From Conexibacter sp. SYSU D00693 (GTDB lineage: Bacteria > Actinomycetota > Thermoleophilia > Solirubrobacterales > Solirubrobacteraceae), in contig NZ_CP070950.1 in assembly GCF_017084525.1 (NCBI RefSeq), forward strand, positions 1,984,001-2,048,000: DNA of 64,000 bases, given 5' to 3'. This document shows positions 1,811 through 17,303 of the stretch, one piece after another. Both the position numbers and the translations under genes were made by a program. Within the stretch, counting starts at the first letter, position 1; every line of letters begins with the position of its first letter. Under the pieces are notes generated by a model. It was not told the DNA's origin, made no database searches, and saw only the letters and a program-made list of their open reading frames with translations.

Positions 1811-3121
1811 CTACGCCCCGGGCTCCAGCACCGCGCTCCCGAGGACGTCGGCCAGCCGCAGCGCGAGGGCGAGGTCGGACCCGGCGCGCAGGACGTCGCG
1901 ACCCAGCAGCTCCGTGCAGGCGGCCACGCGGTTGCTGACCGTGTTCGGGTGCACCGCCAGGCGGTGCGCGGCGGCGCTGCGGCTGCCGTGCTCCTCGAGG
2001 TAGGCCCTGAGCGTGTCCCGCAGCCGGGCGTGTTCCTGCGTGCCGCCGGCCAGCGGGCCGAGCTGGCGCCCCACGAAGCGCCGTGCGCGCTCGAGGTCAC
2101 CGCTGACGAGGGAGATCAGCTCGACGTCGCGGTAGCGGACGACGGCGCCCACACGGCCTGCGGCGAGCAGTGCCACCCGCGCGGCCTCCGAGGCCTCGCG
2201 GTGTGAGTCGCGGAACCCGTCGAGGCCGGGCTGCGGCTCCCCGACGGCGACCGACACCGACTCGGGCCGGCGCCGGCCGACGGCGTCGCTGACCCGCTCG
2301 ACGTCGAGCGGTCCGTCGCTCGCCGCCCACGCCCACAGCAGGCCCCCGCCGACCGGGACCTTGAGGGCCTTCGGGGCGTCCACCGACGCCGCGATCGCAT
2401 CGGCGAGGTCGTTGAGCTCGGCGAGCGCCCGCGGGCGGCTCGACGGCGCCCGCGACCAGACGACGAGGCCCAGGTGGGTCCGGCGCAGCTCGTAGCCGAT
2501 CGCGCGGCTGACCGCGTCGGCGTCCGTCGCGTCCCCCTCGAGGATCGCGCGCACGGTCGCCACGCGGGTCGCCTGCGCACTGCCGACCGCGGCCGCCTGG
2601 GCCTGCTCGTGCTCGTCGGAGAGCCGGCGCACCAGCACGTCCAGCCAGCGGAAGGTCAGCTCCTGGGCCGACCGCAGCGTCTCGGCGAGCACCTCGGCCG
2701 GGAGGGGCTGGGCGGCGAGCTCGCGGTTCCACGCGTCGAGGAAGGCGTGGTGCCCGAAGTGGCACGCTCGCAGCACCGGCTCCAGGCTCCGGCCCGAGCG
2801 GGCGAGGCCTCGAGCGGCCGCGATCGCCTCGGGCGCCGGTCGGATCGCCTCGAGCGGCTCTCCGCGCTGCAGCGTGCGCAGGAAGTCGAGGAGGTGCATG
2901 CGGGCGCCGGACCGCAGCTCCTCGTGCGTCTGCGGGTCGTCGGGCAGCTCCCGGACCTCGCCCTGTGCGTCGTCGGCGACCCGCTGCGCGATCTCATCCG
3001 CACGCTGCTCGATCGCGCGTGCCGCCCGGCGCAGCGCCTCGGCTGCGGCCTCCGAGCGAGGCCTCGATCCTGCCGGGGACGAGCGCATGGGACGAGCATG
3101 ACCGCTCACGGAGGTCGTCAT
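1811..3121 (-). CDS. PucR/CdaR-type transcriptional regulator
   Basis: 436 residues. The C-terminal HTH_30-type domain reads LRDTLRAYLEEHGSRSAAAHRL then AVHPNTVSNRVAACTELLG. It is preceded by a GGDEF-like regulatory region (about residues 175-310) and an N-terminal helical domain. This is the layout of PucR/CdaR regulators, which often control the catabolic genes beside them. It is the last gene of the minus-strand operon, 32 bp after the acyl-CoA synthetase, so it is the best candidate regulator of the nitrilase operon and perhaps of the divergent homogentisate operon. ATG at 3121 (MTTSVSGHAR) was chosen; an ATG three codons upstream is also possible. Confidence 0.88.
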   Translation of the reverse strand: MTTSVSGHARPMRSSPAGSRPRSEAAAEALRRAARAIEQRADEIAQRVADDAQGEVRELPDDPQTHEELRSGARMHLLDFLRTLQRGEPLEAIRPAPEAIAAARGLARSGRSLEPVLRACHFGHHAFLDAWNRELAAQPLPAEVLAETLRSAQELTFRWLDVLVRRLSDEHEQAQAAAVGSAQATRVATVRAILEGDATDADAVSRAIGYELRRTHLGLVVWSRAPSSRPRALAELNDLADAIAASVDAPKALKVPVGGGLLWAWAASDGPLDVERVSDAVGRRRPESVSVAVGEPQPGLDGFRDSHREASEAARVALLAAGRVGAVVRYRDVELISLVSGDLERARRFVGRQLGPLAGGTQEHARLRDTLRAYLEEHGSRSAAAHRLAVHPNTVSNRVAACTELLGRDVLRAGSDLALALRLADVLGSAVLEPGA

Positions 3122-3153
3122 GCGGGGCATCGACGGCGTCGGCGATGGCGCCG

Positions 3154-4662
3154 CTAGGGCGCGGCGCTCGCCCGGCGGTCCTCGAGGAGCAGGTGCTTGC
3201 GCAGCTTGCCGGTGTCCTCGCGCGGCATCCGGCGGACGAACTCCACGCTCCGGGGGCACTTGTAGCTGGCCATCCGCTGCCGGCAGAAGGCGATGAGCTC
3301 GGCCTCGAGCCACGAGCCCGCCAGAGCCATGTCGGTCGGCTGCACCACCGCCTTGACCTCCTCGCCCATCTCCGGGTGGCTGATCCCCACCACCGCCGCA
3401 TCGTCGACGTGCGGGTGCTCGGCGAGGAGGTCCTCGACCTCCTTGGGGTAGACGTTGACCCCGCCGGTGATGATCACGTGGGCCTGGCGGTCGGCGAGGT
3501 ACAGGTAGCCGTCCTCGTCGAGGTGGCCCATGTCGCCCATGGTCGTCCAGCCCGACGGGTGACGGGAGGCCGCGGTCTGCTCCGGCGCGTTGAGGTACTC
3601 GAACGCGTTGCCGCCTTCGAAGAACACCTTGCCGACCTCGCCCGCGGGCAGGTCCCGCCCGGCCTCGTCGACGATGTGCACGCGCCCGATGACCGCCCGC
3701 CCGACGGTCCCCGGCCGGTGCAGCCAGTCCTCGGAGGTCGCGGCGACGAACCCGTTGCGCTCGGTGCCCGCGTAGTACTCGTGGACGATCGGACCGAGCC
3801 ATTCGATGGCGGCCTCCTTGACCGCGGGTGGGCACGGCGCACCCGCATGCACCACGCACCGCAGCGAGCGCAGGTCGTACCTGGCACGCACGCTCGGATC
3901 GAGCGCCAGCAGGCGGACGAGCATCGTCGGCACGACCTGGGTGTGGGTCACGCGATGGCGTTCGACGGCGCGCAGGAACTCCTCGGCGTCGAAGCGGTCG
4001 AGCACCACGACGGCAGCTCCGCAGCGCAGCGCCGACATCGAGAACCGGAAGGGGGCGGCGTGGTAGAGCGGCGCGGCCGACAGGTAGACGCTCGACCCGT
4101 GCACCCCGTAGAGCGGACCGACCAGCCGGTCGAAGGCCGTCGGCGAGCCCGGCGGCGCGTCCGGGAGCGGGAACCTCACGCCCTTCGGCCGGCCGGTCGT
4201 GCCGGCGGAGTAGAGCAGGTCGATGCCCTGGGCCTCGTCGTCGACGGGATGCTCCGGTCGCCCGGCCACGGCCACGTCGTAGGCCTCGAACCCGTCGGCG
4301 GCCGGGCCGCACACCAAGCGGGTCTCGAGCGCGGGCGCCTGCGCCGCCGCAGGCACCGCCACCTCGGCCATCCGCGGTGTCGTGACCAGCGCCCGCGCCG
4401 CGCAGTCGGCGAGGACATAGGCCACCTCGGCCGGTCGCAGGCGCGTGCTGATGGCCGTGTAGTAGAGCCCCGTCCGCTGCGCGGCCCATGCGACCTCGAG
4501 GAAGCGCGGATGGTTCTCCATGAGGATCGCGATCCCGTCGCCGGTCTGCAGACCACGGCTGCGCAGGAGGTGCGCCAGCCGGTTGGACCGCCGGTCGAGG
4601 GCATCGTGGGAGACGGACTCGCCCGTGGCCGCCATCACGTAGGCCAGGCCGGTGCGCCTCAT
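3154..4662 (-). CDS. AMP-dependent acyl/aryl-CoA synthetase (ANL superfamily)
   Basis: 502 residues, full length for the family. Visible motifs: P-loop YSAGTTGRPKG (151-161), EYYAGTERNGF (A5 region), GDMGHLDEDGYLYLADR with the hinge aspartate, and the C-terminal acylation lysine in REDTGKLRK. It activates a carboxylic acid to its CoA thioester through an acyl-adenylate. Its ATG overlaps the stop of the upstream dehydrogenase (ATGA), so translation is probably coupled. In context the substrate is likely an aromatic or branched acid made by the nitrilase or dehydrogenases; the sequence alone does not settle it. Confidence 0.92.
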   Translation of the reverse strand: MRRTGLAYVMAATGESVSHDALDRRSNRLAHLLRSRGLQTGDGIAILMENHPRFLEVAWAAQRTGLYYTAISTRLRPAEVAYVLADCAARALVTTPRMAEVAVPAAAQAPALETRLVCGPAADGFEAYDVAVAGRPEHPVDDEAQGIDLLYSAGTTGRPKGVRFPLPDAPPGSPTAFDRLVGPLYGVHGSSVYLSAAPLYHAAPFRFSMSALRCGAAVVVLDRFDAEEFLRAVERHRVTHTQVVPTMLVRLLALDPSVRARYDLRSLRCVVHAGAPCPPAVKEAAIEWLGPIVHEYYAGTERNGFVAATSEDWLHRPGTVGRAVIGRVHIVDEAGRDLPAGEVGKVFFEGGNAFEYLNAPEQTAASRHPSGWTTMGDMGHLDEDGYLYLADRQAHVIITGGVNVYPKEVEDLLAEHPHVDDAAVVGISHPEMGEEVKAVVQPTDMALAGSWLEAELIAFCRQRMASYKCPRSVEFVRRMPREDTGKLRKHLLLEDRRASAAP

Positions 4663-5756
4663 GCGTCGACGAGCAGGACGGGCTTGACGACCTCGCCGCG
4701 CACCGCGGCCCCCTCCGCGTCGTTGATCGCCGAGAGGGGGAACGTCTCGACCAGGCAGTCGAAGGGGAAGCGACCCTGGCGCCACAGCTCGACGAGCTGC
4801 GGGACGAACACCCGCGGGACGACGCCGCCCTCGATGATCCCCATCACCGTCCGTCCTACGGCGAGGGCGCGACGGCCGAGCGTCAGGTCGCCGGTCGGGA
4901 TCCCGACCAGGCCGCAGACGCCCCGCGGCGTCAGCGACGCCACGGCGTCCGCGGCCACGGACGGGATGCCGGTCGTGTCCAGGGCGAAGTCGAAGCCGCC
5001 GGTGAGGCCCCGCAGCTGATCGACGAGATCGGGGGCCGCCGGGTCCATGGACCGGTGCGCGCCGACCCGCTCCGCGAGCGCGCGACGGCCCGCCCGCGGC
5101 TCGACGGCGACGACGGCGGCCGCCCCCGCGAGCTTGGCCGCCATGACCGCGGAGAGCCCCACCGCGCCTGCGCCGAAGACGACGACGTTCGCCCCCGCGG
5201 GCACGCGGAGCGCCTCGAGGACCGCCCCCGCCCCCGTCTGCACGCCGCAGCCCAGCGGGCCCAGCAGCTCGAGCGGGACGTCGGGTCCCACGGGCACGAC
5301 GTTGCGCGCCGCCACGACCGCGTGGGCCGCGAACGACGACTGACCGAACCACCGGTTGGCCACGGGTGCGTGCGCCCCGTCGACCATGGTCGTGGCGCCG
5401 TCCACGGCTCGCCCGGTGAGGTTGCGCTCGAAGAAGCTGTCGCAGGTCGACGGGCTCCCGGCCAGGCACCCGCGACAGCCGGCGCACGAGTCGAAGCTCA
5501 GCACCACGTGGTCGCCCACCCGGGGTTCAGCGACCCCCGGGCCGACCGCCTCGACCACCCCGGCGCCTTCGTGACCGGCCACCAGCGGGAACGAGACCGG
5601 TGCCTGCGGGCGGCGCGGGAACAGGTCGGTGTGGCAGAGGCCGACGCCCACCACGCGGACGAGCACCTCGCCCGCGGCAGGCTCCTCGAGGCGCACGTCC
5701 TCGAGCGCGAACGGCTGGTCGGGCCCCCGCAGCACGGCGGCGCGCGTGCGGATCAT
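4659..5756 (-). CDS. Zinc-dependent alcohol dehydrogenase (MDR family, aryl-alcohol type)
   Basis: 365 residues. Catalytic zinc ligands are C41 (GLCHTDL) and H62-E63 (GHEGAG), with a further cysteine in PLGCGVQTGAG. The structural zinc site is C91, C94, C97 and C105 (CAGCRGC...STC). A Rossmann motif GAGAVGLSAV follows. The pattern is that of class III-like and benzyl/aryl-alcohol dehydrogenases, which oxidise a primary alcohol to an aldehyde with NAD. It sits between P450 and acyl-CoA synthetase with 4-bp ATGA overlaps on both sides. The P450 product alcohol is a plausible substrate (inference). Confidence 0.92.
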   Translation of the reverse strand: MIRTRAAVLRGPDQPFALEDVRLEEPAAGEVLVRVVGVGLCHTDLFPRRPQAPVSFPLVAGHEGAGVVEAVGPGVAEPRVGDHVVLSFDSCAGCRGCLAGSPSTCDSFFERNLTGRAVDGATTMVDGAHAPVANRWFGQSSFAAHAVVAARNVVPVGPDVPLELLGPLGCGVQTGAGAVLEALRVPAGANVVVFGAGAVGLSAVMAAKLAGAAAVVAVEPRAGRRALAERVGAHRSMDPAAPDLVDQLRGLTGGFDFALDTTGIPSVAADAVASLTPRGVCGLVGIPTGDLTLGRRALAVGRTVMGIIEGGVVPRVFVPQLVELWRQGRFPFDCLVETFPLSAINDAEGAAVRGEVVKPVLLVDA

Positions 5757-7015
5757 CGGAGCTCGTAGCGGACGGGCAGCCGCTTGAGGCCGCCGACGAA
5801 CAGCGTGTGGACGCGGGCGGGCGGTCCCGCGAGCTCGATGCTCGCCAGTCGGGGCAGGAGCTCCCCGAAGAACTCGCGCAGCTCCATGCGCGCGAGCTGG
5901 GCACCGAGGCAGGCGTGGATGCCCGACCCGAAGGCGCGGTGGCGGTTGGGCCTGCGCGCGACGTCGAACTCGTCCGGGCGCTCGAAGACCTCCTCGTCGC
6001 GGTTGGCCGACGGGTAGCAGAGCGTCACCGCCTCGCCGGCGCGGATCGTCACACCGCGCAGGGTGTAGTCCTCGGTGGCGGTGCGCACGAACTGCTTGAC
6101 CGGTGAGACCCACCGCAGCATCTCGTCGACGGCCGTCGGGAGGAGCTCCGGCTCGGCACGCAGGCGCGCGAGCTGGTCTGGGTGCTCCAGGAGCGCCAGC
6201 AGGCCGCCCGAGAGCGTCGAGCTGGTGGTGTCGTGCCCCGCCGTGGCGATGAGCACGTAGTAGGACATCACCGCCATGTCGTCGAGCGGCCGCCCGTCGA
6301 CCTTCGCGTTGGCGATGACGGACGCGAGGTCTTCGGTCGGCGTGCGCCTGCGGTCGGCCGCGAGCTGCGAGAAGTACGCGAAGAAGTCCTCGAAGACCGC
6401 GAGGCGCTCCTCCGCCGACGCGCTGCGCCGCAGCTCGGGGTCCTGCTCGCCGAACATCTGCTGGGTGAGGCCCAGCATGCGCTCGAAGTCCGACTCGGGG
6501 AGGCCCAGGACCGAGAGGATCACCTGCAGCGGGTAGTGCATCGCGACGTCACGGACGACGTCGCACTCACCGGGCATCTCGGCCATCCGGGCCACGGCGC
6601 TCCGCGCCAGGTGGCCGACGCGCTCGTGGATGCGCGCCAGCCCGCGCGGCTGGAACCACGCCTGCGTGATCGCCCGGTGCGCGCGGTGCTCGGGCTCGTC
6701 CATGTGCACCAGCGAGCGGATCGGCGAGCCGCGCTGTGCCCGGAGGTGGTCGGCCTCGGCGGACTGGAGGATCGGCCGAGGGGCGTTGATGAAGACGTCG
6801 TTGCGGGCCTCGACCTCGGTCAGGTCGGCGTGCTTGGTGATCGCCCAGAACGGGTTGAAGCCCGGCGCCTCCACCCGGTGCACGGGAGACTCGCGCCGCA
6901 GCAGCGTGAAGACCTCGTGCAACAGACGCTCGTCGGCGTAGGTCGCGGGGTCCGTGAGTAGCCGCCCTGCCTCCTCCGGGCGCTGCACCGTCATGGTCGT
7001 GCTAGCCGCGGACAT
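5753..7015 (-). CDS. Cytochrome P450
   Basis: 420 residues, a soluble bacterial class I-type P450. I-helix oxygen-binding motif AGHDTT (259-264), ExxR with E298 and R301, and haem-binding loop FGSGIHACLG with Cys369. ATG at 7015 (MSAASTTMTV) follows a gggagagg ribosome site and overlaps the end of the HpaB-like gene by 14 bp. Longer in-frame starts lie inside that gene. No ferredoxin or ferredoxin reductase gene is nearby, so electrons must come from elsewhere. Probably hydroxylates an aromatic or aliphatic substrate of this operon. Confidence 0.93.
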   Translation of the reverse strand: MSAASTTMTVQRPEEAGRLLTDPATYADERLLHEVFTLLRRESPVHRVEAPGFNPFWAITKHADLTEVEARNDVFINAPRPILQSAEADHLRAQRGSPIRSLVHMDEPEHRAHRAITQAWFQPRGLARIHERVGHLARSAVARMAEMPGECDVVRDVAMHYPLQVILSVLGLPESDFERMLGLTQQMFGEQDPELRRSASAEERLAVFEDFFAYFSQLAADRRRTPTEDLASVIANAKVDGRPLDDMAVMSYYVLIATAGHDTTSSTLSGGLLALLEHPDQLARLRAEPELLPTAVDEMLRWVSPVKQFVRTATEDYTLRGVTIRAGEAVTLCYPSANRDEEVFERPDEFDVARRPNRHRAFGSGIHACLGAQLARMELREFFGELLPRLASIELAGPPARVHTLFVGGLKRLPVRYELR

Positions 7016-8417
7016 GTCCCTCTCCCATCCCGGCGACCCCGAGGGCCAGGGCCTTCGCGGCGTCGAGGTCGTAGTGCTTGCGAACGACGAGCTGCTGCGC
7101 GAGGAGGCCGCCCCCGGACTGCACGTGGGTGACGGCGTTCCACCCGCCGAAGGCATCGGCGGTCACGTCGCGGATGGCGTGGAACAGGCGCAGGCGGTGC
7201 TCGCCGTCGGCCGCGGACGTCGCGAGGTACTTGCGCACCCACGGCCCGACCTCCGGGTCGTCGAGGTCGGCGAGGGTGGGCGCGGTCACCACCGCACCGC
7301 CGGCGATGTCGTGCAGGTGGCGGACGAGCACCTCGTGATGCGTCGCGCCGTAGAACTTCGCCGCGTTCGTGCGCAGGTCGTCGGGGTACAGGTAGCCGTC
7401 CGGCGTCGACTGCGCCCGCGCGATCGCCGCCTCGAGCCCCGCGCGCACGAGCGTGGCGTGGATGATCATCTCGGAGATCTTCAGCCGCACGTGGGGCACG
7501 CGGTCCAGGCCGTTGGCCTCCGCGATCAGCTGGGCGAGCCCGACCAGCACGTCGGCCTGCCACGCCATGGCGTTCGTGCCGCTCAGCCGCTCCCACAGTC
7601 CCAGCGCATGGGCGAAGGTCGCTGAGTGCTCGACCTGGCCGTCGATGAAGACGCGGTCCCAGGGGACGAGGACGTCGTCGAAGACGACCATCGCGTCGGG
7701 CATGTTCAGGACCCGGGAGTACGGGAAGTGGCGGTCGTCCTCGGCCGCCGGCGCGTAGCTGCTGGCGATCACCGACACCCCCTCCGACGCGATCGGGACC
7801 GCACACGCCACCGCGTAGTCCTCCTCCCCCTGCTTCATCTGCTTGGTGGGCATCACGAGGAGGTCGTGGCAGAGCGGCCCGCCCGTGATGTGGAGCTTGG
7901 CACCGCGCACGACGATGCCGTCCGAGCGCCGGTCCACCACTCGCAGGTAGGCGTCGGGGTCGCCCTGGTCCCCGGGCCGTCGCACCCGGTCGCCCTTGGC
8001 GTCGGTGATGCAGAACGTGATCCGCACGTCGTCGCGCAGCGCGGCGTCGCGGTAGGCCGTGATCCGCGCGGCGCGGTCGGGATGCGTCCGGCCGACCTCC
8101 GGCGCCACCGAGTGCAGGGTCATCATCGACTGGTAGGTGATGGCGGTCAGCGGGTCCACCGTGCGCAGGAGTGCCGCCTGCTCGTGCAGGCGCTCCACCG
8201 TCCGCGGCCCCTCCATCAGCGGGTTGGTCGCGCCCGGCCGCGCGTCGTGGTGGCGGTCGTAGCCGCGGGCGATCCAGTCGATGGCACGCGAGAACGCGCG
8301 CTCGCCCTCGAGGTCGTCGATCCGGCGCCCGTGCAGGACGACGCGGCGCCCGTCGCGCAGCGAGGCGCGGTACCCACTGCCGGTGAGCATCCCGGGCCGC
8401 CTGGTGGTCTCCTGCAT
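7002..8417 (-). CDS. HpaB / 4-hydroxybutyryl-CoA dehydratase superfamily flavoenzyme
   Basis: 471 residues with family landmarks NPLMEGPRTVERLHEQA, VRGAKLHITGGPLCHDLL, PWDRVFIDGQVEHS, DIAGGAVVTAPTLADLDDPEVG and a C-terminal FGGWNAVTHVQSGGG. The superfamily contains FADH2-dependent 4-hydroxyphenylacetate 3-monooxygenases and the FAD/4Fe4S 4-hydroxybutyryl-CoA dehydratases. The cysteine set needed for a 4Fe4S centre is not evident, which favours a monooxygenase. No HpaC-type flavin reductase gene is nearby. Start and upstream stop overlap by one base. The position among arylacetate-type genes suggests aromatic ring hydroxylation (inference). Confidence 0.85.
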   Translation of the reverse strand: MQETTRRPGMLTGSGYRASLRDGRRVVLHGRRIDDLEGERAFSRAIDWIARGYDRHHDARPGATNPLMEGPRTVERLHEQAALLRTVDPLTAITYQSMMTLHSVAPEVGRTHPDRAARITAYRDAALRDDVRITFCITDAKGDRVRRPGDQGDPDAYLRVVDRRSDGIVVRGAKLHITGGPLCHDLLVMPTKQMKQGEEDYAVACAVPIASEGVSVIASSYAPAAEDDRHFPYSRVLNMPDAMVVFDDVLVPWDRVFIDGQVEHSATFAHALGLWERLSGTNAMAWQADVLVGLAQLIAEANGLDRVPHVRLKISEMIIHATLVRAGLEAAIARAQSTPDGYLYPDDLRTNAAKFYGATHHEVLVRHLHDIAGGAVVTAPTLADLDDPEVGPWVRKYLATSAADGEHRLRLFHAIRDVTADAFGGWNAVTHVQSGGGLLAQQLVVRKHYDLDAAKALALGVAGMGEGHVRG

Positions 8418-9829
8418 CAGGCGACCGCCCGCGCGCGGTGCAGGACCTGGAGCTCGGTGAACTCCGCCAGGCCCCAGGGCCCGTTCTCGACACCGATCCC
8501 GCTGCCACGCCGCCCGCCGAAGGGCTGGTGCGGGGCGAGGGCGAGGTGCGTGTTGACCCACGCCGTGCCGCAGTCCAGCGCGGCAGCGACCTCGGACCCC
8601 CGGTCGGGATCGCTCGTCCACACCGACCCCGCCAGCCCGAACGGCGTCGCGTTGGCGCGCTCGACGGCCTCCTCGACCCGGCGGTACGCCAGGACGGGCA
8701 GGGCCGGGCCGAACTGCTCCTCCGCGACGAGCCGGGCGTCGTCGTCGAGGTCGGTCACGACGGTCGGCTCGTGGAAGAAGCCCGGGCGCTCGATCCGCCG
8801 TCCGCCCGCGGCGATGCGGCCGCCGCGGCGTCGCGCGTCGGACACGAGCTCCTCGACGCGGCGCAGCTGGGGCTCGTTGTTCAGCGGCCCGAGCTCGGAG
8901 CCGGGATCGGCCCCGGGACCCACCCGTGCGCGGCGCGCGCGCTCCGCGAGCGCGTCGACCAGCTCGGCACACCGTGAGCGGGGCGCGTAGACGCGCTTGA
9001 CCGCCGAGCACACCTGCCCGTTGTTGAGGAACGCCGCCCAGAAGAGCCGCTCGGCGACCTGCGCGACGTCGACGTCGTCGAGGACCACGGCCGCGTCGTT
9101 GCCGCCCAGCTCGAGGGTCACGCGCTTGAGGTGGCGCGCGGCGCCGGCGGCGACGCTGCGTCCGGCAGCCACCGATCCCGTGAAGCTCACCTTGCGCGGC
9201 TGCGGGTGCTCGACCATCCAGCGCCCCAGGTCGTCGCCGCCGCTGAGGACGTTCAGCACGCCCGCGGGGAGCACGCCCGCCAGCAGTTCGCCCAGGTGCA
9301 GCGTGGCCAGGGGCGTGTAGGGCGACGGCTTGAGGACGACGGTGTTGCCGGCACGCAGCGCCGGCGCGACCTTCCACACCGCCAGCAGCAGCGGGAAGTT
9401 CCAGGGGGTGATCGCCGCCACCACGCCCACCGGGCGCCGGAGCACCGCGACGTGGGCCAGCCCGTCGTCCTGGATGACCTCGTCCTCCACGTCGAGCTCG
9501 GCGAAGTAGCGCAGCCACCGCGTGCAGCCCGCCACCTCCCGATGGGCCTCGGCGAGCGGCTTGCCCTGTTCGGCGGTGAGGAGGCTCGCGAGGTCGGGCG
9601 CCGCCTGCTCCACCGCCGCGGCGGCCCGGGCGAGCGCACGCCGCCGGGCGTCGTCGTCGCCTCGCCAGCCCGCGAAGGCCGCCGCCGCGCCGGCCATCGC
9701 CTCGTCGAGCTGCTCCCCGGAGCAGCTCGGTGCCTGGGCGAACACGGCGCCGGTCGCCGGGTCGACGACGTCGAGCGCCCCATTGCTCGACGCCGGCTCC
9801 CCCGAGATGGTCATGGACGCTGCGGTCAT
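8417..9829 (-). CDS. NAD(P)-dependent aldehyde dehydrogenase
   Basis: 470 residues. Catalytic general base E240 (TLELGGND) and nucleophile C274 (NNGQVCSA); cofactor loops TPWNFPLLL, KPSPYTPLA and FTGSVAAG. The enzyme oxidises an aldehyde to a carboxylic acid. It is second in the nitrilase operon, 47 bp after the nitrilase stop, and its own stop touches the HpaB-like start. In this setting it would work with the alcohol dehydrogenase to turn an alcohol or aldehyde into the same acid the nitrilase makes. Start at 9829; an ATG five codons later is also possible. Confidence 0.93.
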   Translation of the reverse strand: MTAASMTISGEPASSNGALDVVDPATGAVFAQAPSCSGEQLDEAMAGAAAAFAGWRGDDDARRRALARAAAAVEQAAPDLASLLTAEQGKPLAEAHREVAGCTRWLRYFAELDVEDEVIQDDGLAHVAVLRRPVGVVAAITPWNFPLLLAVWKVAPALRAGNTVVLKPSPYTPLATLHLGELLAGVLPAGVLNVLSGGDDLGRWMVEHPQPRKVSFTGSVAAGRSVAAGAARHLKRVTLELGGNDAAVVLDDVDVAQVAERLFWAAFLNNGQVCSAVKRVYAPRSRCAELVDALAERARRARVGPGADPGSELGPLNNEPQLRRVEELVSDARRRGGRIAAGGRRIERPGFFHEPTVVTDLDDDARLVAEEQFGPALPVLAYRRVEEAVERANATPFGLAGSVWTSDPDRGSEVAAALDCGTAWVNTHLALAPHQPFGGRRGSGIGVENGPWGLAEFTELQVLHRARAVA

Positions 9830-9876
9830 CGTGCAGCGACTCTGACCGCGCGCCGGACGCCGTGGCTGTCGCGCCG

Positions 9877-10935
9877 CTACACCGCGTTGTCGGGCTGTCC
9901 CAAGCCGCCGGTGCTCAGGACGCCGTCGTGGGCGTCGGGCGACGGGTGCACCCGGCCGTCGCCGTCGGCGGCGGCGGGGGCGGGGGCGCTGACGGGCGGA
10001 GCCGGCTCGCGGTTGAACAGCAGCCGCGTCACGTCGGGGCGCGCGTAGTGGCCGGCCGGGTCGGCCAGGGCCTTGGCCAGCGGGATCAGGCCCAGGTCGA
10101 CCTCGGCGAGGACGAGGCCCTCCTCGTCGGGCGCCAGGTAGGCGGCCAGTCGCGAGCCGTCCGGGCCGAAGACCATCGACCGGCCGCCGCCCGGGAGGAC
10201 GAGACGCCGCTGCTCCGGGCTCTCGCAGAGGAGGTCCACGATCTCGGGGGTGACGGGCGTCGTGGCGGCGACGACGAAGCAGCCGCCCTCGGCGGCGTAG
10301 ACCTGGTTGGCCGCGTCGTTGAGGTCGGGCCCGAGCTGGTTGACCTCGGGCGGTGAGGCGAAGCTCGGCCAGGAGGCCGCGTGCACCTGCTCGTCCTGGG
10401 AGTACATCGCGAACTTGGTCAGGGGCTGGAAGTGCTCCCAGCAGGCCAGCGCGCCGAGGCGGCCCACCCCCGCGACGTCATGGACCGCCAGGTGCGACCC
10501 GTCGCCCTCACCGAACACCGTGCGCTCCACGTGGGTCGGCTTGAGCTTGCGTCGCGCGGCGACGCGGCGGCCCTCGGCGTCGAGGATGAGCTGGGCGATG
10601 TAGAGGCTCCCGCCGCTGCGCTCGCTGAAGCCGAGGACGACGTTGATGTCGTGCTGCGCCGCGGCGGCGGCGATCCGGGCCTCCGCCTCGCTGTCGAGCT
10701 CCATCGAGTTCGCGACGTACGCCGGCACCCACTTCATCGCCCAGGCCGGGGGGCCGAGCCAGGCCCAGTAGGGGTAGCCGGGGATCCACGTCTCGGGGAA
10801 GACGACGAGCTTGGCGCCGTTGCGCGCGGCCTCCGCCACCAGGGCGATCGTCTTGTCCACGGTCGCCTCGAGGTCCAGGTAGACCGGGGTCGCCTGCACG
10901 GCTGCGGCGATGAACTTGGGAGCGGGCTGGGCCAT
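9877..10935 (-). CDS. Nitrilase (carbon-nitrogen hydrolase, nitrile to acid)
   Basis: 352 residues. The catalytic triad sits at the classical nitrilase spacing: E48 (FPETW), K130 (RRKLKPTH) and C165 (ACWEHFQ). The CWEH motif and the GYPYWAWLG segment are typical of true nitrilases rather than amidases. The reaction converts a nitrile to a carboxylic acid plus ammonia. The C-terminal tail (after about residue 315) is proline/alanine-rich and low-complexity, as in nitrilases that form spirals. A gaggtg ribosome site lies 5 bases before ATG. It is the first gene of the operon, suggesting that nitriles are the entry substrate. Aliphatic versus arylaceto specificity cannot be read from sequence. 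Confidence 0.93.
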   Translation of the reverse strand: MAQPAPKFIAAAVQATPVYLDLEATVDKTIALVAEAARNGAKLVVFPETWIPGYPYWAWLGPPAWAMKWVPAYVANSMELDSEAEARIAAAAAQHDINVVLGFSERSGGSLYIAQLILDAEGRRVAARRKLKPTHVERTVFGEGDGSHLAVHDVAGVGRLGALACWEHFQPLTKFAMYSQDEQVHAASWPSFASPPEVNQLGPDLNDAANQVYAAEGGCFVVAATTPVTPEIVDLLCESPEQRRLVLPGGGRSMVFGPDGSRLAAYLAPDEEGLVLAEVDLGLIPLAKALADPAGHYARPDVTRLLFNREPAPPVSAPAPAAADGDGRVHPSPDAHDGVLSTGGLGQPDNAV

Positions 10936-11084
10936 GGGTCACCTCGTCGTCAGGAGTGCCAGCGGTGGGGCGTGCGAGCCCGCATCGCCGCGATCGGGGG
11001 AGCCTACGAACGGGTCGGTGGCGCACGCTGTGGCCCGGTCACACGAGGTTGTCGCGCCCCGCCAGGCACGACGGCGGCGCGGCG
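10936..11084. promoter_or_regulatory. Divergent promoter region between nitrilase and homogentisate operons
   Basis: 149 bases separate the divergent starts of the nitrilase (10935) and the MBL-fold gene (11085). Both operons must be transcribed outward from here. I cannot name a -10/-35 box with confidence, and no clear long palindrome stands out. A PucR-type site is expected if the regulator at 1811-3121 acts here. Confidence 0.4.
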
Positions 11085-12080
11085 GTGACGCTGCCGGCCA
11101 TCACCACCTCACCTCCACCCGGGTTCGCGTCCACCGCGGACCTCACCGACAAGCCGGCGACGCTCGACGAGATCGTGCCCGGCGTCCTCGCGTACACGGC
11201 CGAGGGCGACCCGAACGTCGGCGCGATCGTCACGCCCGACGGCATCGTGGCCGTCGACGCGCGCGCCACCCCGGCTGCGGCCCAGCCGTGGCTCGACGAG
11301 CTGCGCCAGGTCACCGACGTGCCGGTGCGCCACCTCGTGCTGACCCACTTCCACGCCGTGCGCGTGCTGGGTGCGTCGGCCTTCGGCGCTCGGGAGGTGG
11401 TGGCGAGCGAGGCGACGCGCGAGCTCATCCGCGAGCGCGGCGCACAGGACTGGGAGTCGGAGTTCCGCCGGATGCCGCGGCTCGCCAAGGACCCGGGCTC
11501 CGTCCCCGGCCTCACGTGGCCGACGGTCACGTTCTGCGACCGCCTGACCCTGCGGCTGGGCGGCCGCACGGTGCAGCTGCGGCGGCTCGGCCGCGGGCAC
11601 ACCGGCGGCGACATCGTCGTGTGGCTCCCCGACGAGCGCGTGCTGTTCGCGGGGGACCTCGTGGAGGCGGGCGCCGCCCTGTACATGGGCGACGCGCACG
11701 TCGAGGAGTGGCGGACGCGCACGTTGGACGCCGTCGCCGCGATGGGCGCGCGGGCGCTGGTCCCCGGGCGCGGACCCGTGGTCCGGGGCGACGACGTCGG
11801 CCTCGCGATCGAGGAGTCGCGCCGCTTCCTCACGCGTCTGCGCGACGCGGTCGCGCGGGCGCGTGACGCGGGAGCCGACCTCCGGCAGGCGTTCGGCGCC
11901 GCCCACGAGGCGATGGCGCCCCACTACGGCGACTGGCCCATCTTCGAGCACTGCCTGCCCTTCAACGTCAAACGGGTGATGGACGAGCTCGACGGCCGCC
12001 CGCCGGCTGTCTGGACAGCCGAGACCGACGCCGCCGTCTGGCACGAGCTCTCGGCGCCGGCCCCCGACACGACCCCGTAG
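11085..12080 (+). CDS. Metallo-beta-lactamase-fold protein with altered zinc motif
   Basis: 331 residues from GTG at 11085 (VTLPAITTSPPPGF). The fold signature is present: GAIVTPDGIVAVDAR, H88 and H90 in LTHFHAVRV, H172 in GRGHTGGD, and D191 in FAGDLVE. The usual H-x-H-x-D-H motif reads H-x-H-x-V-R: the second-site aspartate and histidine are V92 and R93. A mononuclear or non-hydrolytic role is therefore possible. It leads the homogentisate operon with hmgA 13 bp downstream. Function unknown. An ATG at 10956 would give a longer but less likely protein. Confidence 0.82.
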   Translation: MTLPAITTSPPPGFASTADLTDKPATLDEIVPGVLAYTAEGDPNVGAIVTPDGIVAVDARATPAAAQPWLDELRQVTDVPVRHLVLTHFHAVRVLGASAFGAREVVASEATRELIRERGAQDWESEFRRMPRLAKDPGSVPGLTWPTVTFCDRLTLRLGGRTVQLRRLGRGHTGGDIVVWLPDERVLFAGDLVEAGAALYMGDAHVEEWRTRTLDAVAAMGARALVPGRGPVVRGDDVGLAIEESRRFLTRLRDAVARARDAGADLRQAFGAAHEAMAPHYGDWPIFEHCLPFNVKRVMDELDGRPPAVWTAETDAAVWHELSAPAPDTTP

Positions 12081-12093
12081 GAGCACTGCCCCC

Positions 12094-13266
12094 ATGCGCT
12101 ACCACCACCTCGGGCGGGTCCCGCCCAAGCGCCACGTCCAGGTCCGTCGCGACGGCGCCGGCTCGAGCCTGCTGGTGGAGGAGGTCCTCGGCTACGAGGG
12201 GTTCTCCGGCAACCACTCGATCCTCTACCGCCTGCGCTCGCCGTGCGCCGTCGAGCGCGTCGGCGAGTTCCGCGCGATCGACCGCGACGAGTGGGTGCCC
12301 CCGGCGCACGTCCATCGGCTCGCCGACCTCAACGGCGTCCCCGCCGGCGGCGACCCGGTCACGGGTCGCCGGCTGCTGATGGCCAACGCCGACATCGAGG
12401 TCTGGGTCTGCAAGCCCACGGAGCAGGGCGAGGGCTTCTACCGCAACGGCGAAGGCGACGAGCTCGTGTACGTCCATCGCGGCGGCGGCGTGTTGCGGAC
12501 GCAGTTCGGCCGAGTGGCGTTCCGTGAGAAGGACTACGTCGTGGTGCCGCGCGGGACCACCGTCGCCTGGGAGCTCGAGGACCGCGAGCAGTTCTGGCTG
12601 GTCTTCCACACCCCCGGCGAGGTCGAGACGCCGACCCGCTACCGCAACCGCTACGGGCAGCTGCTCGAGCACGCCCCGTTCTCGGCGCGCGACTTCCACG
12701 GGCCCGAGGAGCTCGAGACCCGCGACGAGGCGGGCGAGTTCGTCGTGGTGGTCCGCGTCCGCGACGGTCACCAGCGCTACGTGCTGGGCCGTCACCCCTT
12801 CGACGTCGTCGGCTGGGACGGCTACGTGTGGCCGTACACCTTCAACGCCCTGGACTTCGAGCCGCGCGCGGGACGCCTCCACCTGCCGCCCCCGGCACAC
12901 CAGACGTTCCAGGGGCCCAACTTCGTCATCTGCACCTTCGCTCCCCGGATGCTCGACTGGGACCCGGAGGCGGTGCCGCTGCCCTACCACCACTCGAACA
13001 TCCAGTCCGAGGAGGTCATGTTCTACGCCGACGGCGACTACACCGCGCGCCGGGGCGTCGGCGTCGGGTCCGTGACGCTGCACCCCTCGGGCCTGCCCCA
13101 CGGCCCGCAGCCCGGGACGGTGGAGGCCGCGTTGGGCGCCACGCGGACCGACGAGCTCGCGGTGATGTGGGACACGTTCCGGCCGCTGGCGCTCACGTCG
13201 CTCTGGCAGGCCCACGACCGCGACGAGTACGCCTACAGCTGGAACGACGCCGTCGACGCCGGCTGA
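12094..13266 (+). CDS. hmgA: Homogentisate 1,2-dioxygenase
   Basis: 390 residues. The iron ligands fall at the spacing of the human enzyme (H335, E341, H371): H300 in PYHHSN, E306 in SEEVMFY and H336 in PSGLPHGP. It opens the aromatic ring of homogentisate with O2 to give maleylacetoacetate. The protein is shorter than the 430-440-residue proteobacterial and eukaryotic forms, consistent with the compact actinobacterial type. An aggag site overlaps the stop of the preceding gene. Next come the unknown protein and fumarylacetoacetase of the same pathway. Confidence 0.95.
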   Translation: MRYHHLGRVPPKRHVQVRRDGAGSSLLVEEVLGYEGFSGNHSILYRLRSPCAVERVGEFRAIDRDEWVPPAHVHRLADLNGVPAGGDPVTGRRLLMANADIEVWVCKPTEQGEGFYRNGEGDELVYVHRGGGVLRTQFGRVAFREKDYVVVPRGTTVAWELEDREQFWLVFHTPGEVETPTRYRNRYGQLLEHAPFSARDFHGPEELETRDEAGEFVVVVRVRDGHQRYVLGRHPFDVVGWDGYVWPYTFNALDFEPRAGRLHLPPPAHQTFQGPNFVICTFAPRMLDWDPEAVPLPYHHSNIQSEEVMFYADGDYTARRGVGVGSVTLHPSGLPHGPQPGTVEAALGATRTDELAVMWDTFRPLALTSLWQAHDRDEYAYSWNDAVDAG

Positions 13267-13273
13267 GGGTCCC

Positions 13274-14158
13274 GTGGACGCGCGGTCCATCCTCCTGCGG
13301 GAGGCGATCGACGACGCCGGGCTGTTCCCGCCGGCGCGCAAGCCGCTGGCACGGGCCGTCGCCGACCACGGCGCGGCCCGCCGGTCGGCCGCGGGCTGGA
13401 TGCTCGGCCGCTTCCTCTGCCCCGTGTCGCGCCTGCGGGAGGCCGCCGGTGTGGTGCGGGCCCGATGGCCGCTGGGCGTCGTGCTCGACGCGGCGGGCGG
13501 CGACTGGCTGACCGGCGTCCGGAGCGACCTGGCGCTGTGGGCCAGCTCGGCGGGCTCCGCCTCGGCCACCGCCTTCGAGCTGCGCCTGCCCCACGACGCG
13601 GTCGACCGACCGGCGATCACGGACCTCGTGACGTGCCTGGAGCGCGCCGGGGTCGGCGACCGCATCGTCTTCCTGGAGGTGCCCGGGCACGACCCCGACA
13701 CCGTGCGGGCCGCGCTCGCATCGATCGCCCGGACGGCCGGCGGGCGGCGATTGGGGGCCAAGCTGCGCTGCGGCGGCGTCGTGGCCGAGGCGTTCCCGCC
13801 GTCGTGCGCCGTCGCGACGTTCATCGACGAGGCGCGGCGGCTCGGGCTCCCCTTCAAGGCGACAGCCGGGCTCCACCATCCCTTCCGCACGCGGGAGGCG
13901 GCGCTCGGGGTCCTCCAGCACGGCTTCGTCAACCTCCTCGCCGCCACGGCCCTGGTCGAGGCAGACCCGCTGGAGGTGGTCGAGGAGAAGGATCCGAGCG
14001 CCTTCCACATCGATGCAGACGGGCTCGCCTGGCGCGACCACCGCGCCGATGCGGCGGCGCTCGCGGCAGCTCGTCGGCGGTTCGTCGCCTTCGGCAGCTG
14101 CAGCTTCGACGAGCCCGTCGCCGACCTCGGGCTCGTGCTCGACGGGGCGACGCCGTGA
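13274..14158 (+). CDS. Conserved unknown protein between hmgA and fumarylacetoacetase genes
   Basis: 294 residues, not assigned to a named family by me. It starts 7 bp after hmgA and its stop overlaps the GTG of fumarylacetoacetase, so it belongs to the pathway operon. The C-terminal half is the most enzyme-like: LGAKLRCGGVVAEAFPPS, then FIDEARRLGLPFKATAGLHH and a closing FGSCSFDEPV. Conserved-looking K, C, H and D residues in beta-strand/loop settings suggest a TIM-barrel-like active site. No signal peptide or membrane segment. Position suggests maleylacetoacetate isomerisation or a related step, but this is inference only. Confidence 0.85.
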   Translation: MDARSILLREAIDDAGLFPPARKPLARAVADHGAARRSAAGWMLGRFLCPVSRLREAAGVVRARWPLGVVLDAAGGDWLTGVRSDLALWASSAGSASATAFELRLPHDAVDRPAITDLVTCLERAGVGDRIVFLEVPGHDPDTVRAALASIARTAGGRRLGAKLRCGGVVAEAFPPSCAVATFIDEARRLGLPFKATAGLHHPFRTREAALGVLQHGFVNLLAATALVEADPLEVVEEKDPSAFHIDADGLAWRDHRADAAALAAARRRFVAFGSCSFDEPVADLGLVLDGATP

Positions 14159-15360
14159 GCGGGAGCTGGGTCCCGGGGGCCGACCGGTCGGGCTTCGGGC
14201 TGACCAACCTCCCGTACGGGGTGGTCCGCCGCCGGGGCGCTCACCCGCGCTGCGCCGTGCGCATCGGCGACTTCGCGCTCGACCTCGGACGCCTCGTCGA
14301 CGCGGCGCTCCTCGACCTTCCCGCGGGGACGTTCGCCGGCACCACGCTCAACCGCTTCCTCGAGCTGGGTCCCGCGGTGTGGGCCGCGACGCGACGGCGG
14401 TTGACCGACCTCCTCACCGAGGGCGCCCCGGAGGCCGCAGCGGTGGGCGACGCCCTGGTGGCCCTCGGGGACGTCGAGGTCGTGATGCCGGTGGCGGTCG
14501 GTGACTTCGTCGACGGCTACGCCTCGCTCGAGCACGCAACGAACCTCGGCCGGATCTTCCGCCCCGACGGAGCGCCGCTGCTGGCGAACTGGCGCCACCT
14601 CCCGGTCGCCTACCACGGTCGCGCGGGCACGGTGGTCCCGAGCACGACGCCGATCCGGCGACCCCAGGGCCAGCGCCCACCGGACGCTCCCGGCGCCCGG
14701 CCGACGTTCGGGCCGGAGCGACAGCTGGACGTCGAGGTCGAGCTCGGCTTCGTCACCGGGGCCGGACCGGCGCTCGGCCGGCCGATCGAGATCCGCGACG
14801 TCGCCGACCACGTCTTCGGCGTCGTGCTGCTCAACGACTGGAGCGCCCGCGAGCTGCAGCGCTGGGAGTACCAGCCGCTCGGACCCTTCACGGGCAAGTC
14901 GTTCGCCACGTCCATCTCCCCATGGATGGTGCCGCTCGACGCGCTCGCGGGCCGCCGGGTGGCGGGGCCCGTGCAGGAGCCAGAGCCCCTCCCGTACCTG
15001 CGCACGCCGGAGCCGTGGGGGCTCGACGTGGACCTGGAGCTCGAGCTCAACGGCACGGTGGTCTCCAGGGTCAACGCGCGCGGCCTCTACTGGAACGTCG
15101 CACAGCTGCTCGCCCAGGCGACCGTCAGCGGCGCGACGGTGGCGGCTGGTGACCTGTTCGCCACGGGCACGATCTCCGGCCAGGGACCCGCCTCGCAGGG
15201 GAGCCTGGTCGAGCTGACCTGGGGCGGCCGGCAGCCGCTGCGTCTGGAGGACGGGACGCAGCGGACCTTCCTCGAGGACGGCGACGTGGTCGTGATCCGC
15301 GGGGCCGCGGGCGCGGTGTCGTTCGGGAGCGTCCGCGGCCGGGTCGAGCCCGCGCGGTGA
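14155..15360 (+). CDS. fahA: Fumarylacetoacetase
   Basis: 401 residues from a GTG that overlaps the previous stop (GTGA). Active-site residues match the mammalian enzyme: D120 and H127 in DFVDGYASLEHATN, E194 and E196 in LDVEVELGF, and D228 in LLNDWSAREL, followed by GKSFATSISPWM. The enzyme hydrolyses fumarylacetoacetate to fumarate and acetoacetate, the last step of homogentisate breakdown. Its own stop overlaps the start of the FAD monooxygenase gene by 4 bp. Confidence 0.95.
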   Translation: MSGSWVPGADRSGFGLTNLPYGVVRRRGAHPRCAVRIGDFALDLGRLVDAALLDLPAGTFAGTTLNRFLELGPAVWAATRRRLTDLLTEGAPEAAAVGDALVALGDVEVVMPVAVGDFVDGYASLEHATNLGRIFRPDGAPLLANWRHLPVAYHGRAGTVVPSTTPIRRPQGQRPPDAPGARPTFGPERQLDVEVELGFVTGAGPALGRPIEIRDVADHVFGVVLLNDWSARELQRWEYQPLGPFTGKSFATSISPWMVPLDALAGRRVAGPVQEPEPLPYLRTPEPWGLDVDLELELNGTVVSRVNARGLYWNVAQLLAQATVSGATVAAGDLFATGTISGQGPASQGSLVELTWGGRQPLRLEDGTQRTFLEDGDVVVIRGAAGAVSFGSVRGRVEPAR

Positions 15361-16970
15361 GCGGCCGCGGTCCGGACCAGGGGCCCGTCGTCGTGGTGGG
15401 CAACGGCCCCGTCGGCCAGACCGCCGCGCTGCTGCTGGCGCGCTGGGGCGTCCCCACCACCATCGTGGACGCGCGCGGCGGGCGCGACGGCGCCGGGTCG
15501 CGCGCCATCTGCCAGCAGCGCGACGTCCTGGACGTGTGGTCGGCGGTGGGCGCTGGGGAGCAGATCGCGCGGGAGGGCCTGGCGTGGGAGCGCGGCCGGA
15601 CCTTCTACGGCGACCGCGAGCTGTTCTGCACCACGTTCCCCGACCGCGGACGTTCGCCGTTCCCGCCCCTGGTCAACATCTCGCAGGCGCGGACCGAGCA
15701 GCTCCTGGACCAGGCCGTCGCCGCGTCGCCGCGCATCGACGTGCGCTGGGGGTCCGAGGTGGATGCGCTGACGCAGGACGACCACGGCGTCACGGTCGGC
15801 GGGCGCAGCCCGGCGGGGCGCTTCGAGCTCCGGGCGCCCTACGTCATCGCGTGTGCCGGATCGCGCAGCGACGACCTCCGGGCGGCGCTCGGGCTGGACT
15901 TCCCGGGCCGTACGTTCGACGAGCGGTTCCTCATCTGCGACATCCGCGCCGACCTCCCCGGCTGGCAGCGCGAGAGGCGCTTCTGGTTCGACCCGAGCTG
16001 GAACCCCGGCCGCCAGGTGCTGGTGCACCCCTGCCCGGGCGGCACGTACCGCATCGACTGGCAGGTCGCACCTGGGTTCGAGCTCGCGGGCGAGCGGGCG
16101 ACGGGAGGCCTGCACCGTCGCGTCCGCCAGATCGTCGGCGACCGGCCCTACGAGCTCGTGTGGACGTCGGCGTACCGCTTCCACTCGCGGCGGGTCCCGC
16201 GCATGCGCGTCGGGCGGGTGCTGCTGGCGGGCGACATGGCGCACCTCTTCTCGCCGTTCGGCGCCCGGGGGCTGAACTCGGGCGTCGCCGACGCCGAGAA
16301 CGCCGCCTGGAAGGTGGCGTTCGCGCTGCGCGGATGGGGCGGTGCGGCGCTGCTGGAGAGCTACGACCGCGAGCGCTTGGCCGCAGCGACGGAGAACCTC
16401 GAGGTCACCACGGCCACGATGGAGTTCCTCGTCCCCGCCGACGACCGTGCACGCCGGCGTCGCCGCGAGGTGCTCGAGCGCGCCCTGCTCGACCCCGCCG
16501 CGCGCACGGAGATCGACTCCGGCCGCTTCGCCGAGCCCTACTGGTACGTCGACTCGCCGCTGACGACCACCCATCCCGAGCGGACGTTCTCGGGACGCCC
16601 GCCGCGGGGCCAGGCCCCGCCGGTCGTCCCAGGGATCCTCGTGCCGGACGCGCCGGTCCGGGTCCCCGACCGCCCCGGCGTGACCCGGCTGCGCCAGCTC
16701 GTCCGCAGCGGCCTCCTGGCCCTCACGACCGACGGCGTGGAGCCCAGGCGGGCGCTGGGGACCCTGCGCCGGAGCGTCACCGCCCCGGTGCAGGCCCACG
16801 CACTGGCGTCGATCGACGTCGAGGGCGTCCTGGCCGAGGCGTTGCAGGCCAGGCGCGGAGAGACGTGGCTCATCCGCCCGGACGGCCACCTCGCCGCCGT
16901 CGTCGGGGATGCCTCGGACGCCCTCGAGGCCGCCGCCCGCCGCTGCCTGGGGATGGTCAGGCCCGCGTGA
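15357..16970 (+). CDS. FAD-dependent aromatic monooxygenase (class A, MhpA/PheA-like)
   Basis: 537 residues from a GTG overlapping the fahA stop. FAD-binding GxGxxG (GNGPVG, 15-20), a central substrate-binding region and the second FAD motif VLLAGDMAHLFSPFGARGLN followed by DAENAAWKVA. The thioredoxin-like C-terminal extension is in the right place for the phenol hydroxylase/MhpA branch. It uses NAD(P)H and O2 to hydroxylate a phenolic ring. Last in the homogentisate operon, it is a good candidate to make homogentisate from 3- or 4-hydroxyphenylacetate (inference). Confidence 0.9.
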   Translation: MSGRGPDQGPVVVVGNGPVGQTAALLLARWGVPTTIVDARGGRDGAGSRAICQQRDVLDVWSAVGAGEQIAREGLAWERGRTFYGDRELFCTTFPDRGRSPFPPLVNISQARTEQLLDQAVAASPRIDVRWGSEVDALTQDDHGVTVGGRSPAGRFELRAPYVIACAGSRSDDLRAALGLDFPGRTFDERFLICDIRADLPGWQRERRFWFDPSWNPGRQVLVHPCPGGTYRIDWQVAPGFELAGERATGGLHRRVRQIVGDRPYELVWTSAYRFHSRRVPRMRVGRVLLAGDMAHLFSPFGARGLNSGVADAENAAWKVAFALRGWGGAALLESYDRERLAAATENLEVTTATMEFLVPADDRARRRRREVLERALLDPAARTEIDSGRFAEPYWYVDSPLTTTHPERTFSGRPPRGQAPPVVPGILVPDAPVRVPDRPGVTRLRQLVRSGLLALTTDGVEPRRALGTLRRSVTAPVQAHALASIDVEGVLAEALQARRGETWLIRPDGHLAAVVGDASDALEAAARRCLGMVRPA

Positions 16971-17192: not shown

Positions 17193-17303
17193 TGAACGAC
17201 ACGAAGACCCCGCGACCCACGGCTGGCGACCCGCAGCGGTCGCGGGCAGGTGAGCACGCAAGTGAGGCCTCGCTCGGAGGCCTCGACCGTCTCGGGAACG
17301 CGA

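Follow-up and report, generated by a model that had tools for sequence, protein, structure and literature searches.

Homogentisate is the route by which many organisms break down tyrosine, phenylalanine, and hydroxyphenylacetates, and the textbook maleylacetoacetate isomerase of this route (MaiA, a zeta-class glutathione transferase) requires glutathione, whose synthesis is absent from most actinobacteria, from bacilli, and from numerous further lineages. Two described gene arrangements come closest to the locus reported here. In the mhaAB-hmgABC systems of Pseudomonas putida U and Burkholderia xenovorans LB400, the MhaAB genes lie beside hmgABC (PMC3053370), such that a FAD monooxygenase, homogentisate dioxygenase, and fumarylacetoacetase are clustered and entry from tyrosine is not needed. 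In a second arrangement, an alphaproteobacterial operon found on plasmids of Alloyangia (two plasmids), Ponticoccus, Roseomonas, and Paracoccus, hmgA, fahA, maiA, and genes for a metallo-beta-lactamase (MBL)-fold protein, a FAD monooxygenase, and a DUF2783 protein occur together. Judged by its predicted products, the plus-strand operon in our window (the entire 64,000-nucleotide stretch of the Conexibacter sp. SYSU D00693 genome that was analysed) matches this alphaproteobacterial module, a relative of the systems that degrade 3-hydroxyphenylacetate by way of homogentisate; its MBL protein is 46% identical, and its monooxygenase 37%, to the Alloyangia counterpart. However, the alphaproteobacterial operon encodes a long canonical HmgA and the glutathione-dependent MaiA, whereas the window encodes a short HmgA and an unnamed 294-aa protein. 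Compared with mhaAB-hmgABC, the window likewise has the short HmgA and has the 294-aa open reading frame (ORF) in place of maiA (hmgC), as well as an extra MBL protein and no evident MhaB/DUF2783. We consider the best explanation of the locus to be a glutathione-free homogentisate route, with the 294-aa protein as isomerase, next to a separate minus-strand cassette (probability roughly 0.6).

The two gene sets are divergent—seven genes on the minus strand (1811–10935) and five on the plus strand (11085–16970), with a 149-bp intergenic region between them (10936–11084, from gene boundaries). All 12 genes of a preliminary description of the locus proved real and correctly placed, as judged by gene boundaries, domain matches, and codon-position G+C, which is coding-like in each frame of both operons. 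All six junctions of the minus operon are overlaps of at most 14 bp or gaps of less than 50 bp, and in the plus operon, the junctions lie between extremes of a 4-bp overlap and a 13-bp gap. The same description had called the locus an island; with the operons at 74.5% G+C versus 74.2% for the window, composition lends this term no support, and a compositional genomic island was rejected.

The plus operon begins with a MBL-fold metallohydrolase (331 aa; 11085–12080; PF00753; PDB 8d2z, 301 bits); the preliminary description assigned no role to this protein or to the 294-aa ORF. The second gene encodes a short homogentisate 1,2-dioxygenase-like cupin (390 aa; 12094–13266), in which H300, E306, and H336 align with the iron ligands H335, E341, and H371 of human HGD (1ey2). 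The two histidines are present in 43/43 relatives, and position 306 is glutamate or aspartate in 43/43. Thus, the earlier hmgA call holds with respect to iron ligands and the PF20510 and PF04209 cut-offs, both exceeded, but not with respect to TIGR01015, where the protein attained 56 bits versus a cut-off of 510.75; because of this score, we assign it to a short divergent branch with predicted iron ligands kept, not to canonical HmgA. Fumarylacetoacetase (FahA, 401 aa; 14155–15360) exceeded its own threshold (TIGR01266, 415.6 bits; cut-off 375.3). The last gene encodes a class A FAD monooxygenase (537 aa; 15357–16970; PF01494, E = 6e-53), over the cut-off of the PRK08132 subfamily at 443.5 bits, which we propose to be a hydroxyphenylacetate hydroxylase; like MhaA, it is a class A flavoprotein within a hmg cluster. 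Which isomer it would hydroxylate is uncertain, as it is 29% identical to a MhaA-like Acinetobacter protein and has no evident DUF2783 partner: no coding-like ORF of at least 60 aa that might encode the small MhaB/DUF2783 subunit was found in the stretch that runs from 16970 to the att repeat at 17302. The genome encodes no 4-hydroxyphenylpyruvate dioxygenase (HPPD); tyrosine is therefore not the source of homogentisate, and a tyrosine pathway feeding the plus operon was ruled out. The observations support a homogentisate-cleavage operon, probably fed by its own FAD hydroxylase.

We also weighed whether the substrate of the operon is another hydroquinone, such as a 2,5-dihydroxyphenyl acid that is not the acetate, with a short HmgA and a FahA of shifted specificity. 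While the low TIGR01015 score, the missing HPPD, and a monooxygenase only distantly related to MhaA would all fit, FahA passes the fumarylacetoacetase cut-off, and short HmgAs 52–79% identical to that in the window lie near HPPD in most relatives from the class, which indicates homogentisate as the substrate. In addition, Bacillus thuringiensis breaks down homogentisate with a hmgA whose length, 1,173 bp, is identical (PMC6193087). Taken together, we regard a different hydroquinone as improbable.

The 294-aa ORF (13274–14158, plus strand) lies directly upstream of fahA and had no Pfam, NCBIfam, or PDB match. It belongs to an unnamed family of more than 560 loci across many phyla, with 22 residues invariant among 79 family sequences, including E102, E135, K163, K195, H201, H202, and C276. 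An AlphaFold model predicts a TIM-like barrel with high confidence (pLDDT 93.8, pTM 0.92). The proposed reaction and operon membership are those of MaiA, but the sequences are unrelated: the ORF has no match to TIGR01262, the predicted barrel replaces the glutathione transferase fold, and glutathione is not expected to take part. Among class I aldolases the resemblance of fold is weak, with deoxyribose-phosphate aldolase (which also has strand-end lysines) as the best match at a TM of about 0.5, yet at 11–18% identity and with no profile similarity (hhalign probability 0.3%); membership in the DeoC family was therefore rejected in favour of fold resemblance only. Glutathione-free isomerisation of a related compound does exist in actinobacteria, in the form of the DinB-like, mycothiol-dependent maleylpyruvate isomerase of the gentisate pathway, although that enzyme is unlike the 294-aa protein in both fold and sequence.

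The family is associated with FahA—in 62 of 73 loci with enough room for the test, spanning many phyla, FahA is encoded directly downstream, and the other 11 have no adjacent FahA. In a sample of 267 Actinomycetota genomes, every ORF carrier had FahA directly downstream (12/12; Fisher p = 4e-13, kinship ignored), while 18 of the 30 FahA-bearing genomes had no ORF beside it. True MaiA (TIGR01262) was found in none of 50 ORF-bearing genomes, and the genome containing the window likewise yielded no protein passing TIGR01262. Where HmgA instead adjoins a short FAH-family protein, the ORF was absent (0/16 genomes). Finally, the window and Rhodococcus have the ORF, and lack maiA, in operons equivalent to the alphaproteobacterial one; by gene content, the 294-aa ORF thus appears to substitute for maiA within this operon type.

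Because of this linkage to fahA, the absence of MaiA, the invariant residues, the confident model, the equivalence with maiA operons, and the absence of the ORF beside short FAH-family proteins, we interpret the 294-aa protein as probably the long-missing glutathione-free isomerase. We lean, by a modest degree, towards the broader proposal of a new family of cofactor-free, barrel-fold maleylacetoacetate isomerases, unrelated to MaiA, through which part of the MaiA-less bacteria, from many phyla, would complete homogentisate degradation. Counting against a glutathione-free isomerase, cyanobacterial lineages with family members do make glutathione. The 11 loci with no adjacent FahA and the weakness of the aldolase resemblance likewise weigh against it. 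Moreover, the ORF is missing beside FahA in the 18 Actinomycetota genomes noted above, and three members of the taxonomic family carry HPPD-HmgA-FahA but lack both the ORF and MaiA, which implies that other isomerases exist or that FahA works without one; no common neighbour that might be an alternative isomerase was found beside FahA in FahA-only genomes. These considerations bear on a rival interpretation, in which the 294-aa protein has some other task tied to FahA (as a tautomerase, a FahA partner, or in repair of side products) and maleylacetoacetate is left to an unlinked isomerase, to spontaneous isomerisation, or to direct hydrolysis by FahA. The many genomes with FahA and no ORF, and the lack of a sequence link to any isomerase, favour this possibility; on the contrary, the ORF replaces maiA without co-occurring with true MaiA, and the invariant residues of the family look catalytic, such that we judge another FahA-tied task somewhat unlikely.

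If the 294-aa protein is indeed the isomerase, the FAD monooxygenase would hydroxylate a hydroxyphenylacetate, most likely 3-hydroxyphenylacetate, to homogentisate, which the short HmgA would open to maleylacetoacetate. The 294-aa protein would then convert the cis double bond to trans, forming fumarylacetoacetate for cleavage by FahA to fumarate and acetoacetate, and the whole route would be independent of glutathione. Isomerisation might dispense with a thiol cofactor: K163 or K195, both invariant lysines, would activate the ketone, and the invariant Cys276 would add to the double bond to allow rotation. The maleylacetoacetate isomerase gene of Bacillus has been stated to be unidentified (PMC4457819, PMC6193087). 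The conserved family directly upstream of fumarylacetoacetase, not found alongside true MaiA, is a concrete candidate for such missing genes and supplies named residues for mutation; if the assignment is true, hundreds of “hypothetical protein” annotations would be corrected.

The minus-strand operon is, by its domain and homology matches, centred on a P450terp-like cassette. Its cytochrome P450 (420 aa; 5753–7015; PF00067) carries the heme motif FGSGIHACLG and is CYP108-like by its close match to P450terp (1cpt, 386 bits over 406 residues; next P450tol and 3tkt), without an official CYP family assignment. The remaining members are a zinc alcohol dehydrogenase (ADH, 365 aa; 4659–5756; PF08240, PF00107; 223 bits versus a cut-off of 440 for NDMA-dependent ADHs), an aldehyde dehydrogenase (ALDH, 470 aa; 8417–9829; PF00171, E = 3e-145), and an AMP-binding acyl-CoA synthetase (ACS, 502 aa; 3154–4662; PF00501, PF13193; FadD4-like, 603 bits). 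Together, these four enzymes could oxidise the side chain of a substrate to a CoA ester. Also encoded is a PucR-type regulator (436 aa; 1811–3121; PF13556 HTH_30, E = 1e-13; PF17853 GGDEF_2; 127 bits to the Rv1453-like NCBIfam, under its cut-off). A nitrilase (352 aa; 9877–10935; PDB NitA 6zby, E = 8e-113), with an intact E48-K130-C165 triad in its CN_hydrolase domain (PF00795), and a HpaB-like flavin monooxygenase (471 aa; 7002–8417) are additions to this second, distinct cassette. The latter has both HpaB_N and HpaB domains (PF11794, E = 1e-59; PF03241, E = 1e-47), attaining 166 bits against NCBIfam HpaB-1 (cut-off 480). It was rejected as a 4-hydroxybutyryl-CoA dehydratase/vinylacetyl-CoA isomerase, as the 4Fe-4S ligands are absent, with E and A where the dehydratase has H292 and C299. 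Its close relatives are few and keep the company of other genes.

The preliminary description had joined both operons into one aromatic-nitrile pathway, of which the homogentisate-cleaving operon and the intact nitrilase are supported and the single nitrile-to-homogentisate route is not. In that scheme, nitrilase makes a phenylacetate from an aryl-acetonitrile, ring hydroxylation by the oxygenases follows, and the resulting homogentisate is cleaved through the plus operon, with co-induction from the common intergenic region. The short divergent gap and the nitrilase triad are compatible with this, as are two Rhodococcus plasmids with a 55%-identical nitrilase and the monooxygenase/hmg/ORF/fah genes, albeit more than 100 kb apart, and one distant genome with a HpaB homologue near a HmgA-like cupin. 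But on the preliminary description's own test, whether relatives have the operons apart, no nitrilase, P450, or HpaB gene adjoins hmgA in any of 20 wide loci around HmgA genes of this class, the pairing sought in relatives was found in the window alone among genomes examined, and each cassette occurs elsewhere without the other (the MBL/monooxygenase/hmg/fah module without minus genes, P450-ADH-ALDH-ACS without hmg). Furthermore, the CoA synthetase would divert phenylacetate to its CoA ester. P450terp and P450tol, to which the P450 is closest, have side chains or non-phenolic carbon as their targets, whereas catechols, not the 2,5-diol, are the products of HpaB-type enzymes, making the proposed use of three oxygenases for ring hydroxylation unlikely. 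We found no paper combining nitrilase, homogentisate, and phenylacetonitrile, and a single one combining mycothiol, homogentisate, and maleylacetoacetate. A single pathway is accordingly quite unlikely, and the operons look like two separate catabolic cassettes. A search of plasmids with the window's ADH at E = 1e-60 returned nothing, though the Sphingobium TomTYG65 plasmid ADH aligns at 46%, and we treat this empty result as a threshold or masking effect. That plasmid has adjacent genes for counterparts of the P450 (51% identical), ADH (an aryl-alcohol dehydrogenase), ACS (47%), and ALDH (31%); to such P450terp-type cassettes, the window adds the nitrilase, HpaB-like enzyme, and PucR regulator, and its operon has no ferredoxin gene.

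ORF listing, G+C content by codon position and domain searches together recovered all twelve genes of the divergent nitrilase and homogentisate sets claimed by the preliminary description, at 1984001-2048000 of one 4.43-Mb contig. The minus-strand set (1811-10935) comprises, in gene order, a nitrilase, an aldehyde dehydrogenase, an HpaB-like enzyme, a P450, a zinc alcohol dehydrogenase, an acyl-CoA synthetase and a PucR-type regulator; the plus-strand set (11085-16970) runs from an MBL-fold protein through an HmgA-like cupin, a 294-aa ORF (13274-14158, plus strand) and FahA to a class A FAD monooxygenase. The sets are spaced 149 bases apart, and because neighbouring genes within either share a few bases or leave gaps of <50 bases, each set, judged from this layout, very probably forms one transcription unit.

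The HmgA-like protein scored below the TIGR01015 cut-off (56 bits; cut-off 510.75) and above both Pfam cut-offs, can be aligned with homogentisate dioxygenases from human and bacteria, and retains the iron ligands H300, E306 and H336. Mutation experiments established a role in homogentisate breakdown for a Bacillus thuringiensis hmgA of equal length (1,173 bp; PMC6193087). FahA lies above the NCBIfam fumarylacetoacetase cut-off.

HmgA produces maleylacetoacetate and FahA uses fumarylacetoacetate; the known isomerase between them, MaiA, is glutathione-dependent. Profile searches found no MaiA in this genome (best 50 bits; cut-off 171) and none in 50 ORF-carrying genomes (0/50), many being incomplete metagenome bins, with a Caulobacter positive control recovered; otherwise equivalent operons without the ORF contain maiA. 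For Bacillus anthracis and B. thuringiensis the isomerase gene was reported as not identifiable (PMC4457819, PMC6193087). As our main result, we propose from gene context that the 294-aa ORF is a candidate for the missing isomerase, acting on maleylacetoacetate without glutathione.

The ORF had no matches in Pfam, NCBIfam or PDB, and its family turned up at no fewer than 564 loci in 84,980 scanned species genomes. The best 80 of these at least 564 span many phyla (for example Planctomycetota, Chloroflexota, Gemmatimonadota, Acidobacteriota, Eremiobacterota, Cyanobacteria and archaeal metagenome bins), and, of 73 loci with room, 62 have FahA as the next gene downstream in the same orientation. 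Across 267 evenly drawn Actinomycetota genomes, 12 carry the ORF, with FahA present and adjacent in all 12 (Fisher p 4e-13, counting genomes as independent despite kinship); the gap is 12-266 bases in the eleven other than the present genome. Homologues also occur on actinobacterial, Priestia and cyanobacterial plasmids, immediately upstream of fahA in those examined (Rhodococcus pNit and pN1, Tsukamurella, Priestia, Streptomyces, Nonomuraea); a plasmid search found none on proteobacterial plasmids, though FahA is present on 119 plasmid records. One family member, on a Heimdallarchaeota metagenome contig (L133:6980-7906), has no FahA within 7 kb.

It is possible that the 294-aa protein instead has another FahA-linked role, a reading favoured by how often FahA occurs without an adjacent ORF (18 of 30 FahA genomes in the Actinomycetota sample, flanks checked with the family model). 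Three relatives encode HPPD, HmgA and FahA and lack both ORF and MaiA; the ORF is therefore not the sole solution. The idea of direct maleylacetoacetate hydrolysis is reported for some bacilli in work cited by PMC4457819. Where HmgA genes of the Thermoleophilia adjoin a short FAH-family protein, the ORF is absent (0/16); direct hydrolysis would fit that absence, making the short protein a candidate maleylacetoacetate hydrolase. At loci of class relatives (L033, L036, L037, L040, L041, L044-L046, L048, L049, L052), HmgA and HPPD lie near this short protein rather than FahA and the 294-aa ORF.

Returning to the proposed isomerase, a 79-sequence alignment of the family contains 22 invariant residues, including D13, E102, E135, K163, R165, K195, H201, H202 and C276. 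Among PDB structures, its AlphaFold model (pLDDT 93.8, pTM 0.92) best matches class I deoxyribose-phosphate aldolases, with a TM of about 0.5. Because profile comparison with E. coli DeoC found no similarity, membership of that family is excluded and the likeness is one of barrels. For the chemistry, we infer that a lysine would form an imine at the maleylacetoacetate ketone, a cysteine would add to the double bond, and rotation about the former double bond would be followed by elimination.

In most class relatives the HmgA-like orthologue lies near 4-hydroxyphenylpyruvate dioxygenase, which a profile search did not find in this genome (best 33.8 bits; cut-off 277); homogentisate is therefore of other origin, and its obvious source would be the operon's FAD monooxygenase. 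Comparable genes cluster on alphaproteobacterial plasmids (hmgA, fahA, MBL protein, FAD monooxygenase, a DUF2783 protein of ~60 aa, and maiA), whereas Dinoroseobacter has this cluster without maiA, adjoining phenylacetate genes; the Alloyangia MBL protein and FAD monooxygenase are 46% and 37% identical to those here. The alphaproteobacterial monooxygenase and its ~60-aa partner by hmg genes match the description of MhaAB, a 3-hydroxyphenylacetate 6-hydroxylase composed of a large flavoprotein and a 60-aa partner adjoining hmg genes (PMC3053370), and by analogy we infer 3-hydroxyphenylacetate as the probable substrate isomer of the enzyme in the present operon. Rhodococcus pNit and pN1 (L083, L084) carry FAD monooxygenase, short HmgA, ORF and FahA plus CoA-transferase and thiolase genes, a complete gene content for the route from homogentisate to acetyl-CoA.

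Support for the earlier proposal that an aromatic-nitrile pathway feeds homogentisate stops at co-location, as no other examined locus has both sets side by side; on two Rhodococcus plasmids a related nitrilase and hmg module lie >100 kb apart. The shared 149-base gap could possibly drive joint induction. The nitrilase itself is an ordinary family member that is probably active. By analogy, the minus operon core is a cassette for oxidising a side chain as far as a CoA ester, because a Sphingobium plasmid has consecutive P450, ADH, ALDH and acyl-CoA synthetase genes (51, 46, 31 and 47% identical), and because the nearest PDB relatives of the P450 are P450terp, then P450tol. No hmg genes occur in the neighbourhood of the Sphingobium row. 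In the HpaB-like protein the iron-sulphur ligands known from 4-hydroxybutyryl-CoA dehydratase are absent, which rejects that assignment; the protein has no relative above 39% identity in 299 class genomes, and the two closer relatives in the phylum have different neighbours. A distant actinobacterium (L211:4403-10489) has an HpaB homologue (53%) whose neighbours are an HmgA-like cupin (29%), an alpha/beta hydrolase and an acyl-CoA dehydrogenase; going by gene content, this is another uncharacterised ring-cleavage cluster.

A small integrated element (17302-22422; G+C 68% versus 74%) flanks the operons. It encodes an integrase (17715-18656). A direct repeat of 75 bp bounds it, with copies at 17302-17376 and 22348-22422 that are 91% identical, and covers the end of tRNA-Met (22379-22453). 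Within it, minus-strand ORFs with an AHH (HNH-type) nuclease domain (21741-22280) and DUF1963 (20679-21593) might form a toxin/immunity pair (20679-22280).
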